From assembly GCA_020060545.1 (NCBI GenBank), contig JAGUZX010000134.1:45025-109024 (forward strand): a stretch of 64,000 nt of DNA. Direction: 5' to 3'. This DNA comes from Desulfovibrio sp. GTDB lineage: Bacteria; Bacillota; Dethiobacteria; DTU022. Below the pieces are notes generated by a model. That model was given only the letters and a program-made list of their open reading frames with translations. It did no database searches and was not told where the DNA came from. Of this stretch, positions 8,132-59,435 are shown piece after piece. Position numbers and translations under genes: made by a program. Each line of letters opens with the position of its first letter. The stretch's first letter is position 1.

Positions 8132-8160
8132 TTGACAATGATTTTTATCTTACATAAAAT
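8132..8160 (+). promoter_or_regulatory. SigmaA-like promoter for RAYT 1
   Basis: TTGACA-17 nt-TAAAAT, 18 bp upstream of the ATG at 8178. Confidence 0.7.
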
Positions 8161-8177
8161 GGTTTCGGGGTGTTATC

Positions 8178-8939
8178 ATGCCCAGAACGGCCAGAAAAAA
8201 AAGTTCAAGCGGGATTTACCACATAATCATGCGAGGAATCAATCGGCAAAGTATCTTTGAAGACGAAGAAGATAATTGGAAATTTCTTCAAACCCTGAGG
8301 CGCTATAAAAAAATAAGCGGCTTTTGGATTTTTGCTTATTGTTTAATGGGTAATCATGTTCACTTGTTGTTGAAAGAAGGTCTGGAACCCTTAGAGCAAG
8401 TAATGCGCAGGTTATGTGGAAGCTACGTTTATTGGTATAACCGGAAATATGAAAGGATCGGAAATCTCTTTCAAGACCGTTTTAAAAGCGAGCCGGTAGA
8501 AGATGATCCCTTTTTTATAACAGTATTGAGGTATATTCACCAGAATCCGTGTCAAGCCGGCCTAGTCAAAGAGATCGGCCACTACCGCTGGAGCAGCTAT
8601 CATGAATATCTCCAGCCAACGTCGTTTGTCGATATAGATTTTGCGCTCAACCGATTTCATACTGACCGGGAAAAAGCGGTGGAAATCTATATTGCTCACC
8701 AGAGTGCGCCAAAAAATGATCGCTGTCTTGAACTGGAAGAAAAACATCATTTTTCGGACCAAGAAGCCAGAGCTATTATTAAGAAAGTATGTAACATCAT
8801 GAACGCACCTGATTTGCAAAGGCTGGAAAGACAAAGCAGAAACGACTGCTTGAAAAAGCTAAAAGAAGAATATAACCTTTCCGTCAGGCAAATCTCAAGA
8901 CTGACCGGAATCGGAAGAGGGGTTGTCTTTAAAGCATAA
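8178..8939 (+). mobile_element. REP-associated tyrosine transposase (Y1_Tnp/RAYT), unit 1
   Basis: SSGIYHIIMRGINRQSIFEDEED; HxH motif MGNHVHLLL; candidate Tyr region GSYVYWYNRKYERIGNLFQDRFKSEPV; RYIHQNPCQAGLV; C-terminal HTH-like LSVRQISRLTGIGRGVV. Confidence 0.92.
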
Positions 8940-17410: not shown

Positions 17411-17462
17411 AAAGTTCATTTGGTGCCTGGCACCGAATGAACTTTTTCGGCGCCAGGCACCT
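17411..17462. repeat. GTTCAT/GGTGCC REP palindrome between pfkA and pyk
   Basis: aaagttcatttggtgcctggcaccgaatgaacttttt followed by a partial second unit cggcgccaggcacctgag. Confidence 0.85.
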
Positions 17463-27982: not shown

Positions 27983-28025
27983 AATAACTTAATAAACGGT
28001 GCCTGGCACCATTTATTAAGTTATT
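27983..28025. repeat. 43-bp near-perfect palindrome with GGTGCCTGGCACC core and alternate arms
   Basis: aataacttaataaacggtgcctggcaccatttattaagttatt, one mismatch in the arms. Confidence 0.85.
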
Positions 28026-29209
28026 ATGCCATTCATTCGGAGGGAATCGATTTCCGGGCTGGTGTAGCCCAGCGACTGCAATATTTCGGCGGTGTGTTCG
28101 CCGAGGCGGGGAGGCGGCAGGCGCACCGCGCCGCTGGCACCGGAGAAAAGCAGCGGAAAACCGGGCTGCTTGGCGGACTCGGCCCCTTCCCCGGCCGCGT
28201 CGATCCAGAAGCGGCGCGCCAGGCTGACCGGGTGCTCAGCGGCTTCCGGCAGCTCCAGGACCGGTTCGCAGCAGGCGTCAACGGAGGCGAAAATTTGGGT
28301 CCACTCCGACCTGGTCTTGCTTTTAAACAGTGCTCCCACCGCTTCGATCAGCTCTTCCCGCCCCGTCTGGTCGAACTGCAGCGTCACCCACTCCGGCTTT
28401 GCAACGGCCACGCAAAAGTTCTGCCAGAAGGCCGGTTCCAAGGCGCCGAGGCTCATGTGCCCGCCGTCGGCGGTTTCGTAAAGGTTGTAGCAGGCGAAAG
28501 CCCCGGTAAGGTGCCCCCGGTTGCGCCTGGGCAGGGCTTCGCCGCCGGAGCGGTGGGCGGCGGCATAGGACAAAAACGGCAGCAGCCCCTGGGTCATGGA
28601 TACATCCACGTGCGCCCCCCTCCCGTTTTGCGCCCGGGCAAAGAGGGCGAACATAATCCCGGCGAGCGCCATCAGCGACCCCCCCGCGATATCGGCGATC
28701 TGCACCGCCGGCATCACCGGACCCTCCCCGGGAGCGGCGCTCAAGTCCAGCAGCCCGGCCACGGCGGCATAATTGATGTCGTGGCCGGCCCGCTCCCGGT
28801 ACGGACCGTCCTGTCCGTAGCCGGAGATGGAGGCGTAAACGAGCCCGGGATTAAGCCTGGCCGCCTCGCCGTAACCGAGGCCCAGCCGCTCCATCACCCC
28901 CGGCCGGAACCCTTCCACCAGGACGTCGCTCCGGGCGGCCAAAGCTTTGAGGATCTCCCTGCCGGCCGGTTCTTTTAAGTTCAGGGCGACGCTCTTCTTA
29001 TTGCGGTTCCACTGCCGGAAAAAGGCGCCGCTCCCGTCGATGATCTGCCCCGCCGCCCGGGTGGGATCCCCCAAAACGGGGTCTTCCACTTTGATCACCT
29101 CGGCCCCGTAATCGCCCATGATCATGGTACAAAGGGGCCCCGGCAGCAGCCTGGTCAGGTCCACCACCTTGAGCCCCTTCAAGATTGCGCCGCCGGTCTC
29201 CCGGCTCAT
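28016..29209 (-). CDS. CaiB/BaiF family (type III) CoA-transferase
   Basis: LKGLKVVDLTRLLPGPLCTMIMGDYGAEVIKVEDP. Confidence 0.93.
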   Translation of the reverse strand: MSRETGGAILKGLKVVDLTRLLPGPLCTMIMGDYGAEVIKVEDPVLGDPTRAAGQIIDGSGAFFRQWNRNKKSVALNLKEPAGREILKALAARSDVLVEGFRPGVMERLGLGYGEAARLNPGLVYASISGYGQDGPYRERAGHDINYAAVAGLLDLSAAPGEGPVMPAVQIADIAGGSLMALAGIMFALFARAQNGRGAHVDVSMTQGLLPFLSYAAAHRSGGEALPRRNRGHLTGAFACYNLYETADGGHMSLGALEPAFWQNFCVAVAKPEWVTLQFDQTGREELIEAVGALFKSKTRSEWTQIFASVDACCEPVLELPEAAEHPVSLARRFWIDAAGEGAESAKQPGFPLLFSGASGAVRLPPPRLGEHTAEILQSLGYTSPEIDSLRMNGIIT

Positions 29210-47726: not shown

Positions 47727-47796
47727 AAGTTCATTTCGGTGCCAGGCACCAGATGAACTTTTCAGTTCATTTAGTGCCAGGCACCTAGTTCATTTT
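47727..47796. repeat. Double GTTCAT/GGTGCC REP between cobO and meaB
   Basis: aagttcatttcggtgccaggcaccagatgaactt-ttc-agttcatttagtgccaggcacctagttcatttt. Confidence 0.85.
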
Positions 47797-53868: not shown

Positions 53869-55440
53869 TTAGTGTTTGAAATAGCGCCGACCGGTAAAAA
53901 CCATGGCCAGGCCTAAGCGGTTGCAGGCCTCGATCGACTCGCGATCCTTCAGCGAGCCGCCGGGCTGGATGATGGCCGTGATCCCGGCGGCGGCGGCCGC
54001 TTCCACGGTGTCGGGGAAGGGAAAGAAGGCATCCGAACCCATCACCGCTCCCGCCGCTTTCTCGCCTGCCTGCCCCAGGGCGATCCGGGCCGCCGCGATC
54101 CGGCTCATCTGGCCTGCGCCCACGCCGAGGGTTTGCCCCTGCCGGGCGATGACAATGGCGTTGGACTTGACATGCTTGACCACCTTCTGGGCAAAGGCCA
54201 GGTCGCTCCATTCGGCGGCAGTGGGAACCCTTTTCGTCACCACTTCACCCTGCGACGGGTCCACCGGTACGCGGTCCACCGTCTGCAGCAGCAACCCGCC
54301 GGCCACCTTTTTCAAGTCGTAGCGTTCCGCCGCTCCCGTTCCCGCTTCACCCTGCGGGTCGAGCTCCAGGAGACGGATCTCTTTCTTCTGCGCAAAAATG
54401 GGCAGCGCTTCGGTCTCAAAAGCCGGCGCCGCCACCACTTCCAGGAAAATCTCCACCATGCGGCGGGCCGCCGCATGGTCCACGGGGCGGTTTACGGCCA
54501 GGACGCCGCCGAAGATGGAAATCGGATCGGCGGCGTAGGCGAGCTCAAAGGCGGCGGAGACACTCGGCGCCGAACCGACGCCGCACGGATTGGTATGCTT
54601 TACCACCACCACCGTCGGCTCCGCAAACTCCCGCACCAGCTCCCAGGCCGCGTTCACGTCGTGCAAATTGTTAAAGGAAAGCTCCTTCCCCTGCAGCTGG
54701 CGCGCCGCCGCAAGGCCCCGGCTTCCGCCGGCGAAAGCGTAAAAGGCGGCCGCCTGCTGCGGGTTTTCCCCGTAGCGCAGCTCCTGCACCTTCTCCAAGG
54801 GCAGGCAGAGGTCGGGCGGGAAAAGGCCCATACCCGACTCGGGCAGGCCGGCGAAATAGCCGGCGATCAGGGCGTCATACCGGGCCGTGTGGGCGAAAGC
54901 TTCCGCGGCCAGGCGGAAGCGGGTCTCAAGGGTGACACAGCCGTGCTCGGTGAGCTCGGCGATGACCTGCGCGTAGCGGGCCGGGTGGACCACGACGGCC
55001 ACGTGGGCGAAATTCTTCGCCGCCGCCCGAACCATGGTCGGCCCGCCGATGTCGATATTTTCGACCGCTTCTTCCAGCGTTACCCCGGGGCGGGCAATCG
55101 TTTGGGCAAAGGGGTACAGGTTGACCACGACCAGCTCGATCGGCCCGATCCCCTGCTCTGCCAGCTGGCGCCGGTGCTCCGCCCGGTCCAGGCGGGCCAG
55201 GATCCCCCCGTGGATGAGAGGGTTGAGCGTCTTCACCCGCCCGTCGAGGATTTCGGGAAAACCGGTAATCTCCTGCACCCCTTTCACGGAGCAGCCCGCT
55301 TCGCGCAGGGCGCGGGACGTCCCCCCCGTGGAAATAATCTCCCAACCCAGCCGCTTAAGCGCCGCGGCAAACTCGATGATCCCCGTCTTATCCGAAACGC
55401 TGATCAGTGCCCGCTTCTGACTTGGCCCTCTTTCACTCAA
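53869..55440 (-). CDS. purH: Bifunctional AICAR formyltransferase/IMP cyclohydrolase
   Basis: RALISVSDKTGIIEFAAAL; ELSFNNLHDVNAAWEL; KHTNPCGV. Confidence 0.96.
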   Translation of the reverse strand: MSERGPSQKRALISVSDKTGIIEFAAALKRLGWEIISTGGTSRALREAGCSVKGVQEITGFPEILDGRVKTLNPLIHGGILARLDRAEHRRQLAEQGIGPIELVVVNLYPFAQTIARPGVTLEEAVENIDIGGPTMVRAAAKNFAHVAVVVHPARYAQVIAELTEHGCVTLETRFRLAAEAFAHTARYDALIAGYFAGLPESGMGLFPPDLCLPLEKVQELRYGENPQQAAAFYAFAGGSRGLAAARQLQGKELSFNNLHDVNAAWELVREFAEPTVVVVKHTNPCGVGSAPSVSAAFELAYAADPISIFGGVLAVNRPVDHAAARRMVEIFLEVVAAPAFETEALPIFAQKKEIRLLELDPQGEAGTGAAERYDLKKVAGGLLLQTVDRVPVDPSQGEVVTKRVPTAAEWSDLAFAQKVVKHVKSNAIVIARQGQTLGVGAGQMSRIAAARIALGQAGEKAAGAVMGSDAFFPFPDTVEAAAAAGITAIIQPGGSLKDRESIEACNRLGLAMVFTGRRYFKH

Positions 55441-56038
55441 CGATATAGCACCTTCTTCCTTCGACTTTTAGTTTATCCCGGCAGAACAGATCAACCGCAC
55501 GGGGGTAGAGCCGGTACTCGGCGGCGTGCACGCGCTGGTGCAGCGTTTCCGCCGTATCGTCCTGGATCACCGGCACCGCCTCCTGCAGGATCACCGGTCC
55601 GGTGTCCAAACCTTCGTCCACGAAATGCACCGTGCATCCCGTCACCTTGACCCCGTAGGCCAGCGCGTCCTCAATCCCGGATGTGCCGGGAAATGACGGC
55701 AGCAGGGCGGGGTGGATGTTCATGACCCGCATCGGGAACTCCCGGATGAATAACGGGGAAAGCAAGCGCATGAACCCGGCCAGCACCACGAGCTCGACCC
55801 GTTCTTCTTTCAGTTCCCCGATAACGGCCGCGTCATACTCTTCCCGGCTCCGGTACAAACCGGGATCGACAAACATCGCCCGGATACCGCGGCGGCGGGC
55901 GCGCTCCAGGGCCGGCGCCCGCTCCCGGTCGCTGATCACCAGCACCACCCGGGCCGCCACCTTTCCCTGGGCAATCTCCTCTAAAATCGCTTCCAGGTTT
56001 GTCCCCTGCCCCGACGCCAGGACGGCCACCCGCTTCAC
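55433..56038 (-). CDS. purN: Phosphoribosylglycinamide formyltransferase
   Basis: RVAVLASGQGTNLEAIL; NIHPALLPSFPG. Confidence 0.95.
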   Translation of the reverse strand: MKRVAVLASGQGTNLEAILEEIAQGKVAARVVLVISDRERAPALERARRRGIRAMFVDPGLYRSREEYDAAVIGELKEERVELVVLAGFMRLLSPLFIREFPMRVMNIHPALLPSFPGTSGIEDALAYGVKVTGCTVHFVDEGLDTGPVILQEAVPVIQDDTAETLHQRVHAAEYRLYPRAVDLFCRDKLKVEGRRCYIVE

Positions 56039-56109: not shown

Positions 56110-56178
56110 AAGTTCATTTGGTGCCAGGCACCGGATGAACTTTTCAGTTCATATGGTGCCAGGTGCATAAGTTCATTT
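56110..56178. repeat. Double GTTCAT/GGTGCC REP, left flank of RAYT unit 2
   Basis: aagttcatttggtgccaggcaccggatgaacttttcagttcatatggtgccaggtgcataagttcattt. Confidence 0.88.
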
Positions 56179-56182
56179 CTTG

Positions 56183-56211
56183 TTGACTGCTCAAATAAAT
56201 TATGTTAATAT
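56183..56211 (+). promoter_or_regulatory. SigmaA-like promoter for RAYT 2
   Basis: TTGACT-17 nt-TAATAT, starting 5 bp after the left REP. Confidence 0.65.
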
Positions 56212-56245
56212 TCAAAAAAGGTTTATTATGGAAAGAGGTGATCTC

Positions 56246-57061
56246 GTGCCGCGGAAGCCGCGGGTGCATTTTCCGGGCGCGGTGTACCATGTCGTGGTCA
56301 GAGGCAACAACCAGGAAAAGATCTTCGCCAACGATAAAGACAAGCAGTATTACCTGCAGAAAATGAAATATTACAAAAAAAGGTTCTTTTTTGAAATCCT
56401 CTGCTATGCGATCATGGACAACCATGCCCACATGGCAGTGAAGGTCGGATCAGTTTCGCTTGCAAAGATTATGCAAGGTCTCCAACAGTCTTATGCCGGA
56501 TACTTCAACCGGGAATACGAACGCTGCGGTCATGTTTTTGAAGCAAGGTACAAATCTTACCTCTGTGATAATGATCGTTACCTGCTGGCCCTGCTCAGGT
56601 ATATCCACCGCAACCCGATGGAGGCGGGCTTGTCGGCTGGACTGGAATACGAGTGGAGCAGCCACGGTTATTACACAGGCGCAAAGAAAGGAGACATGGT
56701 CGAGACAGGATTGATCTTCGGCCTGCTTTCCCAGTTTTCGCCCGGCGATCCCGCCAATACATACCATAGCTTTATGCAAGCGGCGGCCGAACAAACTGAG
56801 CTGAAAAAAATCACTAATTTTGTACGCGGTGCGCAGGGGAAAATAGCCACCGATGACCAGGTAGCAAGCCTGATTAAACAAGTTGCGGCGGCTTTTGCGG
56901 TCAATCAAAACAGTCTTTTAAAAAGGAGCAGAAATTATCATATCTCAGCAGCCAGAAAGGAACTGATTCGCCGGCTCGCCGCTGATTTAGACTGGCCGCA
57001 CAACCAAATAGCCCAGTTTTTGAGTGTGACGCCAACCTATGTCTGCAGGGTGGTCAAGTAG
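56246..57061 (+). mobile_element. REP-associated tyrosine transposase (Y1_Tnp/RAYT), unit 2; likely GTG start at 56246 (track ORF starts 56180)
   Basis: PRKPRVHFPGAVYHVVVRGNNQEKIF; HxH motif MDNHAHMAV; candidate Tyr region QQSYAGYFNREYERCGHVFEARYKS; RYIHRNPMEAGL; C-terminal HTH-like DWPHNQIAQFLSVTPTYV. Confidence 0.92.
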
Positions 57062-57125
57062 TTCATGCGGTGCCTGGCACCCGATGAACTTTTCAGTTCA
57101 GTTGGTGCCTGGCACCCGATGAACT
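57059..57125. repeat. Double GTTCAT/GGTGCC REP, right flank of RAYT unit 2, overlapping the stops of RAYT 2 and the GNAT gene
   Basis: agttcatgcggtgcctggcacccgatgaacttttcagttcagttggtgcctggcacccgatgaact. Confidence 0.88.
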
Positions 57126-58014
57126 ATTCCTTGAAGGGCTTGCACATCAGGCTCAATCCTTCGACATCTTTAATCGTTTGATAGTCTCTTTTACGATAGA
57201 GCGAGACAGGCTGCCAGCATTGCCGGTCGGGAAAGGCCAATACTTGGACCACTCCGCGTCCCCGCCTTAAAACTCCTGCTTCAAGGGCGTCCAATAGCTG
57301 TCCAGCGACCCGCTGCCCTTTGAATTCGGACCTGACTGAGAGGCAGGTAATCATGATGCCGTCAACACCGCACACGGGATAACCAAATTTTTGAGAAAGC
57401 GGCAGAGGAATTCCCTCAATAAAACCGGCTTCCTCCGCCCCGGCGAAAGCGATTACCCCGATTATATCCCCGCTATTGAGTAACCGCTGCACGAATGATT
57501 TGCGCCGCTCTTCATACGGGCGCCATTCTTCTTCCCGGTAATTCTCCGCCGCCAGGTAAGGGTGGTGCTTGGTGCAAAGCTTGACCAGGTAGTCCAGGTT
57601 GTCAGTACGGTAGAGTTCCAGGCGCAACTCCCCGCCGGTATTGGAGATGCGCGCCGGCTGGGCCCCATAAGAAAAGGGGTAGCTGCTTGCGTCATAAGGC
57701 AACCCTGGGTCCGCCAGCCGCCGCTTCAGCAGCTCCGGCGCGGGCGGAAACCCGGCTACCTCATCCCCATTTAGGTAAAGCTTGCCGTATAACAACGGCG
57801 TCCCTTCACCTCTTTCCAGCACTGCCAGAAGCTTCTTTTCATCTGCCGAAAAGGGATTAGCAGAGGTTAACTCGTCTTCCAGGACATTATATCTCTCGAA
57901 AATTACCGGCAGGCCATGAAAAAAGTGTACCAATTTATCCAGGGTGGCAAAACTTTCCGGGCAGCCCGGGCTGAAAAAATAGCGCGCGACCGGAACGGTT
58001 CCAATCATATCCAT
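57124..58014 (-). CDS. C-terminal GNAT N-acetyltransferase fused to an N-terminal possibly thioredoxin-like domain
   Basis: GIMITCLSVRSEFKGQRVAGQLLDALEAGVLRRGRGVVQVLAF resembles the GNAT acetyl-CoA site; N-terminal PVARYFFSPGCPESFATLDKL. Confidence 0.65.
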   Translation of the reverse strand: MDMIGTVPVARYFFSPGCPESFATLDKLVHFFHGLPVIFERYNVLEDELTSANPFSADEKKLLAVLERGEGTPLLYGKLYLNGDEVAGFPPAPELLKRRLADPGLPYDASSYPFSYGAQPARISNTGGELRLELYRTDNLDYLVKLCTKHHPYLAAENYREEEWRPYEERRKSFVQRLLNSGDIIGVIAFAGAEEAGFIEGIPLPLSQKFGYPVCGVDGIMITCLSVRSEFKGQRVAGQLLDALEAGVLRRGRGVVQVLAFPDRQCWQPVSLYRKRDYQTIKDVEGLSLMCKPFKE

Positions 58015-58038: not shown

Positions 58039-58083
58039 AAAAAGTTCATTAAGTTCATTTGGTGCCTGGCACCAAATGAACTT
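58039..58083. repeat. GTTCAT/GGTGCC REP; perfect 33-bp palindrome at 58051-58083, encoding the PurM C-terminus
   Basis: aagttcatttggtgcc-t-ggcaccaaatgaactt. Confidence 0.9.
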
Positions 58084-59101
58084 TATTGCCGCCGGTGGTT
58101 ACTGAACCAATGTGCCACGCGGTTGTGCCGGTGCGGCTAAGTGCGTCGATCACTTCCGCCGCCTGCTCCGGCGGGACGGCGAGGACAAAGCCGACCCCCA
58201 TGTTGAAAGTGCGGTACATCTCTTCCCGGCGGACCGGCCCCGCCGACTCGATCAGCTTGAAGACGGGCGGCAGCTCCCAGCTTCCCTCTCTGAGTTCCGC
58301 TTGCAGCCCCGTCGGCAGGATGCGGGGCAGGTTGCCGGGCAGGCCGCCCCCCGTAATATGGGCCATTCCTTTGATTGTAAACCGCTCCAGCAGGGGCAGG
58401 ACGGCGGGCACGTAGATCCGGGTGGGGCGCAGCAGTTCTTCCGCCAGGGGCACGGCAAGCCCCGGCGGTATGTCGTTCAGCGGCAGGCCGGCATGCTCAA
58501 GCAGGACTTTTCGGGCCAGGGAGTAACCGTTGCTGTGCAGCCCGGTGGAGGCCAGGCCAACCAGCGCGTCCCCGGCGGCAATGCCCGAACCGTCAATCAT
58601 CCGTTCCCGTTCCACCACGCCCACGGCAAAACCGGCCAGGTCGTATTCCCCGGGCGGGTAGAATCCGGGCATTTCCGCCGTCTCCCCGCCCAGCAGGGCG
58701 CATCCGGCCAGGCGGCAGCCCCGGGCCACCCCCGCAACCACCTGTTCGACCTGCTCCGGCACGAGCCTCCCTACGGCCAGGTAATCCAGGAAGAAGAGCG
58801 GCTCCGCCCCGTGGGTCAGGATATCATTGACGCACATGGCCACGCAGTCTTCTCCGACGCTGTCATGCTTTCCGGCGGCAAAAGCCACTTTGAGCTTTGT
58901 CCCCACGCCGTCAGAACCGGCCACCAGGACCGGGGCGCGGCGGTCTTTCAGCTCCAGGGCGAACAGCCCGCCAAAACCGCCCAGCTCCTGCAGCACTTCC
59001 GGCCGGTAAGTGGAGCGGGCCAAACTCTTGATCCGTTCCACCGCCACCTCGCCGGCTTCTATGTCAACCCCCGCCTGTTGATAATCCAGCTCCCCGCTCA
59101 A
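58055..59101 (-). CDS. purM: Phosphoribosylformylglycinamidine cyclo-ligase
   Basis: [67 protein letters not shown]. Confidence 0.95.
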
Positions 59102-59390: not shown

Positions 59391-59435
59391 TATGAACTTT
59401 TCAGTTCATTCGGTGCCTGGCACCAAATGAACTTT
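59391..59435. repeat. GTTCAT/GGTGCC REP abutting the hppA stop codon
   Basis: tatgaacttttcagttcattcggtgcctggcaccaaatgaacttt. Confidence 0.88.

Follow-up and report, generated by a model that had tools for sequence, protein, structure and literature searches.

A TIRYT-like Y1 transposase between two REP-like palindrome doublets, and a palindromic core that recurs in other phyla

Described systems and the transposase of this locus

The TIRYT transposases and the TIRtrons that they form were described by Di Nocera et al. 2013 (PMC3733652) and equated by Quentin et al. 2018 (PMC6006769) with subclass 2.1 of TnpA-Y1, the second largest TnpA-Y1 subclass, which is also group 1 of Bertels. According to the main text of PMC3733652, GGGGWSAS occurs in the majority of TIRYT repeats, not in all, and some of the terminal inverted repeats (TIRs), being self-complementary, make up dimeric families of moderate abundance. 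Firmicutes and clostridia are not among the examples that this text names. In the survey of Quentin et al. no REP-like sequences were reported near subclass 2.1 genes (PMC6006769). The TnpA-REP enzymes of E. coli and S. maltophilia perform cleavage and strand transfer in vitro, and use a GTAG motif that sometimes guides the cut (PMC8266576).

The window analysed here, a stretch of 64,000 nucleotides, is part of contig C23; the draft genome amounts to 2.52 Mb and is split into 135 contigs. It holds an intact Y1/HUH transposase frame, open and with its catalytic residues kept, between purN (55433-56038) and purM (58055-59101), both of which belong to a purine gene cluster on the opposite strand. 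The open frame spans 56180-57061 (+), and its likely start is the GTG at 56246 (MPRKPR...), which gives a gene at 56246..57061 (+) and a product of 271 aa. This start is preferred because homologues begin with M(A/P)RKPR; it is also preceded by a ribosome-site-like AGAGGTGA stretch. The protein was analysed from the ATG at 56228 (277 aa), upstream of the likely GTG. A promoter-like TTGACT-N17-TAATAT (56183..56211, +) directly follows the upstream palindrome doublet, as a consensus match only and of a type found three times against 1.7 expected in shuffles. Between the transposase and purM we also observed a 296-aa frame (57124-58014, -) that has no match in Pfam or NCBIfam.

The transposase matches PF01797 (E=3.9e-15), while its score for the NCBIfam model REP_Tyr_transpos is 61.6, under the cut-off of 80. 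Its structure model, built with 27 aligned relatives, has a mean pLDDT of 91. The best match in a fold search of the PDB was 4ER8, a structure of the E. coli RAYT in complex with a REP hairpin (E 2.2e-6, TM normalised to target 0.73), and IS200/IS605 transposases ranked next; a search of the PDB by sequence gave no match. The residues H66, H68 and Y125 are invariant in 27 sequences, and an HUH motif with a single Tyr occurs in class-2 context (NHxH, Y---NP). The motifs NHAH (56420-56431), YIHRNP with the catalytic-type Tyr at 56600, and HVFE, together with SS after the core, are those of subclass 2.1 (NHxH, YIHxNP, F[QE] and an SS proximal motif; PMC6006769). This subclass also has a C-terminal domain like Bac_DnaA_C/HTH_23, and here a three-helix helix-turn-helix is predicted at 56936..57055 (+), with weak similarity to Bac_DnaA_C and HTH_23 (E 0.007 and 0.009, short of the curated cut-off) and with modelled helices at residues 237-253, 258-264 and 269-276 (pLDDT ~90). 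The enzyme thus has a RAYT fold, but its motifs and C-terminal helix-turn-helix place it in TnpA-Y1 subclass 2.1 (the TIRYTs).

The sequence-only reading had proposed a RAYT with its cognate REP family. The RAYT fold and a REP-like repeat family hold, but the subclass 2.1 motifs and the helix-turn-helix set the enzyme apart from canonical RAYTs, and the repeats lack a GT[AG]G foot. The locus resembles the RAYT/TnpA-REP systems of E. coli, Pseudomonas and Stenotrophomonas in the 4ER8 fold, in the inverted palindromes that bracket the gene, in the dispersed extragenic copies and in the inverted doublets that recall REPINs. It differs from them in the lack of the GT[AG]G foot, in the symmetry of the palindrome, in the added helix-turn-helix and in the REP_Tyr_transpos score below cut-off. 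With the TIRYTs, as outlined in the main text of PMC3733652, it shares an HUH/Tyr transposase longer than RAYTs and TIRs unrelated to GTAG REPs; it departs from that main text in that its core reads GGTGCCWGGCACC and not GGGGWSAS, that there are roughly 100 copies, and that a single core is combined with two families of arms. The plain, multicopy REP-like repeats also differ from the survey of PMC6006769, which found none, and the combination of a subclass 2.1 enzyme with a REPIN-like family is new. A probable substrate of this large subclass is thereby visible, and in many copies.

Palindrome doublets and two repeat families

As already recognised in the sequence-only reading, the transposase is bracketed by two inverted palindrome doublets. 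They stand in the position of TIRs, and TIRs are also found around its sister enzymes. The upstream doublet (56110..56178) has one perfect and one degenerate core and reads AAGTTCATTT-GGTGCCAGGCACC-GGATGAAC-TTTTCA-GTTCATAT-GGTGCCAGGTGCA(degenerate)-TAAGTTCATTT, with the final arm in flipped orientation. The downstream doublet (57060..57125) starts at the stop codon of the transposase and has two perfect cores (57069-57081 and 57104-57116) that lie 35 bp apart, with the linker ATGAAC-TTTTCA-GTTCA. Both fold as long hairpins (upstream z = -5.6, downstream z = -8.2, against shuffles).

Solo copies had been claimed at 17.42, 47.74, 58.06 and 59.41 kb, and all of them are real; the window contains 12 core matches with at most two mismatches, against 3.1 expected in shuffles. 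The family-A palindrome at 58051..58083 overlaps the 3' end of purM and encodes the final PurM residues (the match to the purM model extends to residue 336 of the 348). Another (59402..59434), preceded by the residual arm ATGAACTTTTCA, lies just 3' of a membrane pyrophosphatase gene. A family-A doublet is found at 47728..47796 (cores at 47738 and 47773, the second beginning AGTGCC; z -7.7), and a family-A palindrome at 17412..17461 combines a core (17422-17434) with a second, partial core (17449-17461). The palindrome at 27984..28026, with core GGTGCCTGGCACC and arms AATAACTTAATAAAC and ATTTATTAAGTTATT, belongs to family B; because its arms are of the AATAACTTAATAA type, this copy at 27,998 is not a GTTCAT element.

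Enrichment of the palindrome in the rest of the genome was likewise confirmed, since the core GGTGCCWGGCACC has 99 exact copies in 2.52 Mb (expected ~0.2 from base composition; reversed core, 0 copies). Arms were typed on the surroundings of 98 distinct cores: GTTCAT arms mark about 58 of them as family A, and AATAACTTAATAA arms mark about 35 as family B. Family-A cores are often paired 35-37 bp apart with the linker ATGAAC-TTTTCA-GTTCAT, and these doublets fold into a single long hairpin, like REPINs. Family B consists mostly of single copies, and all 51 exact copies of its arm adjoin a core when arm positions are compared with the core list. By crude gene calls the copies are mainly extragenic and near 3' ends, with few inside genes. 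The repeats are dispersed and high-copy, often as inverted doublets. A GT[AG]G foot is absent from the arms and feet of the 98 distinct cores, where the arms are of AAGTTCAT or AATAACTTAATAA type, and hence the name REP in its defined sense does not apply; nor is the repeat core a GGGGWSAS motif. The core sequence gave no relevant match in the literature. Nothing was found in Rfam or in phage records, and plasmids yielded distant homologues only.

A second family with the same core, unrelated arms and no transposase of its own is new. A cognate enzyme of family B within this genome was considered and rejected, as none of its five Y1 genes has family-B ends. The two arms of family-B copies point both one way in 14 cases, are mixed in 13 and point both the other way in seven (12.4 : 16.3 : 5.4 expected under independence; p 0.24, small sample). 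A few copies resemble A/B hybrids (L064, L100). In this small sample, arm orientations and hybrids are what one would expect if half-elements were swapped at the core's centre of symmetry.

The family-A copies have a mean identity of 87% to their consensus, with at most one mismatch in 10 of 47, and additional loci are concentrated less than 2.5 kb from the transposase gene (chance ~0.004). Recent or ongoing dispersal, as earlier suggested from the density of copies, is thus weakly favoured by the clustering and disfavoured by the divergence of family A; the clustering is the only hint of activity. Two unusual arrangements were also seen. At L123 (G000:C1) family-A doublets occur three times at ~2 kb intervals on a single contig of 5.5 kb; their flanks are alike in part, two of them at 78% over 284 bp, perhaps by local duplication. 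L066 (G000:C28:32750-34080) has three tandem cores at 36-37 bp with a further arm type, GTCAAGTTATGTCAAG.

Core and arms in other genomes

The transposase has no close orthologue in 59 relatives, where homologues are at most ~45% identical. Within the order, the core is present in 17 of 71 genomes and reaches at least 20 copies in three, including this genome, and most family-level relatives are without the repeat. In the phylum sample 58 of 399 genomes contain the core, and the core-rich ones fall in separate families; GGTGCCTGGCACC reaches 17-99 copies in six of them. We considered that the core might appear common only because it was searched for, and rejected this, as the control palindrome GGAGCCTGGCTCC, changed in one base pair, never amplifies (at most two copies in any of 398 phylum genomes).

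Core doublets were found in species of Bacillota, Planctomycetota, Acidobacteriota, Pseudomonadota, Elusimicrobiota, Cyanobacteria, Spirochaetota and Armatimonadota, among others. Among core-rich genomes, Y1 genes with the core on either side were seen in G039, Paenibacillus bovis, Metabacillus arenae, Fictibacillus terranigra and Halobacillus aidingensis, as well as in G468, a Steroidobacteraceae MAG and a cyanobacterial MAG. The Y1 gene of Pseudoduganella lurida has one perfect and one variant core as brackets, and Clostridium ljungdahlii has the variant core GGTGACAGGCACC. The GGTGCC genomes were chosen for that core, so their bracketing rates are not unbiased; among the unbiased relatives (L022-L050) exact GGTGCC bracketing is absent and variants (GGTGTC, CGTGCC) occur in three. 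The chance that one given gene is bracketed by the core is ~1.5e-5, and the arms around the bracketing cores differ in each genome. The bracketing of Y1 genes from several unrelated lineages and phyla by one and the same core is a new observation, and a core common to many phyla offers one cheap substrate with which several enzymes could be tested.

At least two cores occur in none of 12 relatives without Y1 genes and in six of 48 with them, a difference that is not significant although its direction is as expected. G457 has 28 cores in a 2.2 Mb genome (92% complete) without a detectable Y1 gene, and the only Y1 gene of G022, which has 24 cores, possesses other ends.

On a tree of 70 transposases the palindromic core changes 11 times, at least seven of these changes being forced by starred branches. 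The core was therefore rejected as a marker of a single transposase clade; being polyphyletic, it is not simply co-inherited with the enzyme. The window enzyme falls in a starred clade with four enzymes of the GGGGTCAGG type, its sisters L022, L023, L288 and L289. L023, from the same family as the source genome, has the ends AAGTTCAA-CATTTGGGGTCAGGCCT...TTGAACTT, in which the arm AAGTTCA stands on the asymmetric core GGGGTCAGGCC, and in the window enzyme the same arm stands on GGTGCCAGGCACC. Among 73 enzymes only these two have AAGTTCA on both flanks. The step from an asymmetric TIR to a REP-like palindrome is thus readable between GGGGTCAGGCC and GGTGCCAGGCACC, and bears on how REPs arise. 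In a neighbouring clade (L024, L025, L027, L030, L303 and others) AATAAGT is found on both flanks in four of nine enzymes, as opposed to none of the 64 outside it (Fisher p 1e-4); the core is GGTGTCWGACACC in several genera, and the family-B arm AATAACTTAATAA resembles AATAAGT. Arms seem to follow the enzyme lineage, while the core changes and converges. Because the core labels follow our own motif rules and the genomes were partly selected for the core, we regard this pattern as a lead with moderate support.

Proposed movement of the repeats and alternative explanations

The locus is most likely a REPtron-like unit built on a TIRYT-type HUH transposase, whose TIRs have become perfect palindromes and spread in the manner of REPs. 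The repeats are probably mobilised by the enzyme that they bracket; we infer the cognacy of the two from adjacency alone. By analogy with the TnpA-REP of E. coli and Stenotrophomonas in vitro, recognition, cleavage and transfer would act on single strands: the enzyme would bind the hairpin exposed on the lagging-strand template, Tyr125 would cut close to the foot of the hairpin, and the doublet or half-element released in this way would be joined into other single-stranded DNA. The helix-turn-helix may recognise the lineage-specific arms, and the HUH domain the GG...CC core. The symmetric palindromes, which do not have the GTAG guide of TnpA-REP, count against this explanation, and the orphan families (B in this genome, and those of G457 and G022) make a simple pairing of enzyme and cognate repeat less likely. 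The main text of PMC3733652 mentions genomes that have lost their REPtron but still contain REP families. Family B probably stems from an enzyme of the L024/L025/L303 clade that was lost or not assembled, or else is moved today by way of the shared core.

A tentative extension, to which we give well under even chances, is a two-part address in which the arms are lineage-specific (perhaps read by the helix-turn-helix), the 13-bp core is interchangeable and half-elements recombine at its symmetric centre. It would mean that the core is common to unrelated families within a genome and was reached independently across phyla. Recombination of half-elements would then yield arms either way round and A/B hybrids, and would allow one enzyme to serve other families. 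Families A and B, unlike in their arms, provide a natural experiment for learning what portion of the repeat is recognised.

The domestication of the enzyme seems improbable, though the literature views TnpA-REP enzymes as domesticated (PMC6006769, PMC8266576). The repeats would then no longer be moved, being old relics or selected sites whose hairpins are cut for the host (ssDNA repair, supercoiling or replication), and the single copy of the enzyme and the 87% identity of family A agree with this. Against it stand the patchy presence of the enzyme, which has no close orthologue in the 59 relatives, and the loci clustered within 2.5 kb of the gene.

We give slightly less credit to a view of the palindromes as host elements, for the most part bidirectional intrinsic terminators at gene ends, with the transposase as an incidental neighbour. 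By crude gene calls the copies lie a median of 12 bp from 3' ends and 56 bp from 5' ends, and between convergent more often than divergent gene pairs (20 vs 8); moreover, half of the family-A arms lead into at least three T. However, a T tract occurs on only two of 59 family-B sides, the repeat is missing from most family-level relatives, and neither doublets at 35-37 bp nor the exact bracketing seen around Y1 genes of unrelated bacteria would be expected of terminators.

An IS200/IS605 insertion sequence of the ordinary kind, with subterminal hairpins and with the solo copies as its deletion derivatives, is very unlikely: the HUH Y1 catalytic core and the hairpin at each end are shared, but the Y motif is Y---NP (class 2) and not Y---Q, no tnpB lies beside the transposase, near-identical copies are lacking (mean intragenomic identity in class 1.1 is 99%; PMC6006769), homologues in relatives are at most ~45% identical, and the genome has five divergent Y1 genes with different ends.

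Apart from the window enzyme, two related Y1 genes among these five end in GGGACGGGGTT, one in GAGAACCGTCCCC and one in GGGGTCAGACC. Most of the five follow an arm-core-arm' plan with pairing arms, and the ends of the others are GGGGWSAS-like, as given for TIRYTs in the main text of PMC3733652. One of the five is a second Y1 transposase in the window (8142-8936, +), overlooked in the sequence-only reading; it is TIRYT-like, with a 265-aa frame and quite different, GTGACGGAGGGACGGGGTTGTTGTCAACTTT ends, adjoins what by eye reads as a divergent rpsB gene and has a shorter relative on contig C84. Another Y1 gene (L020, G000:C16:11879-15202) has GGGGTCAGACCTTGAAATGTGAATTAA ends, and similar ends adjoin family-A palindromes at L099 and L100 on contig C121, which suggests that repeats of different enzymes cluster or nest.
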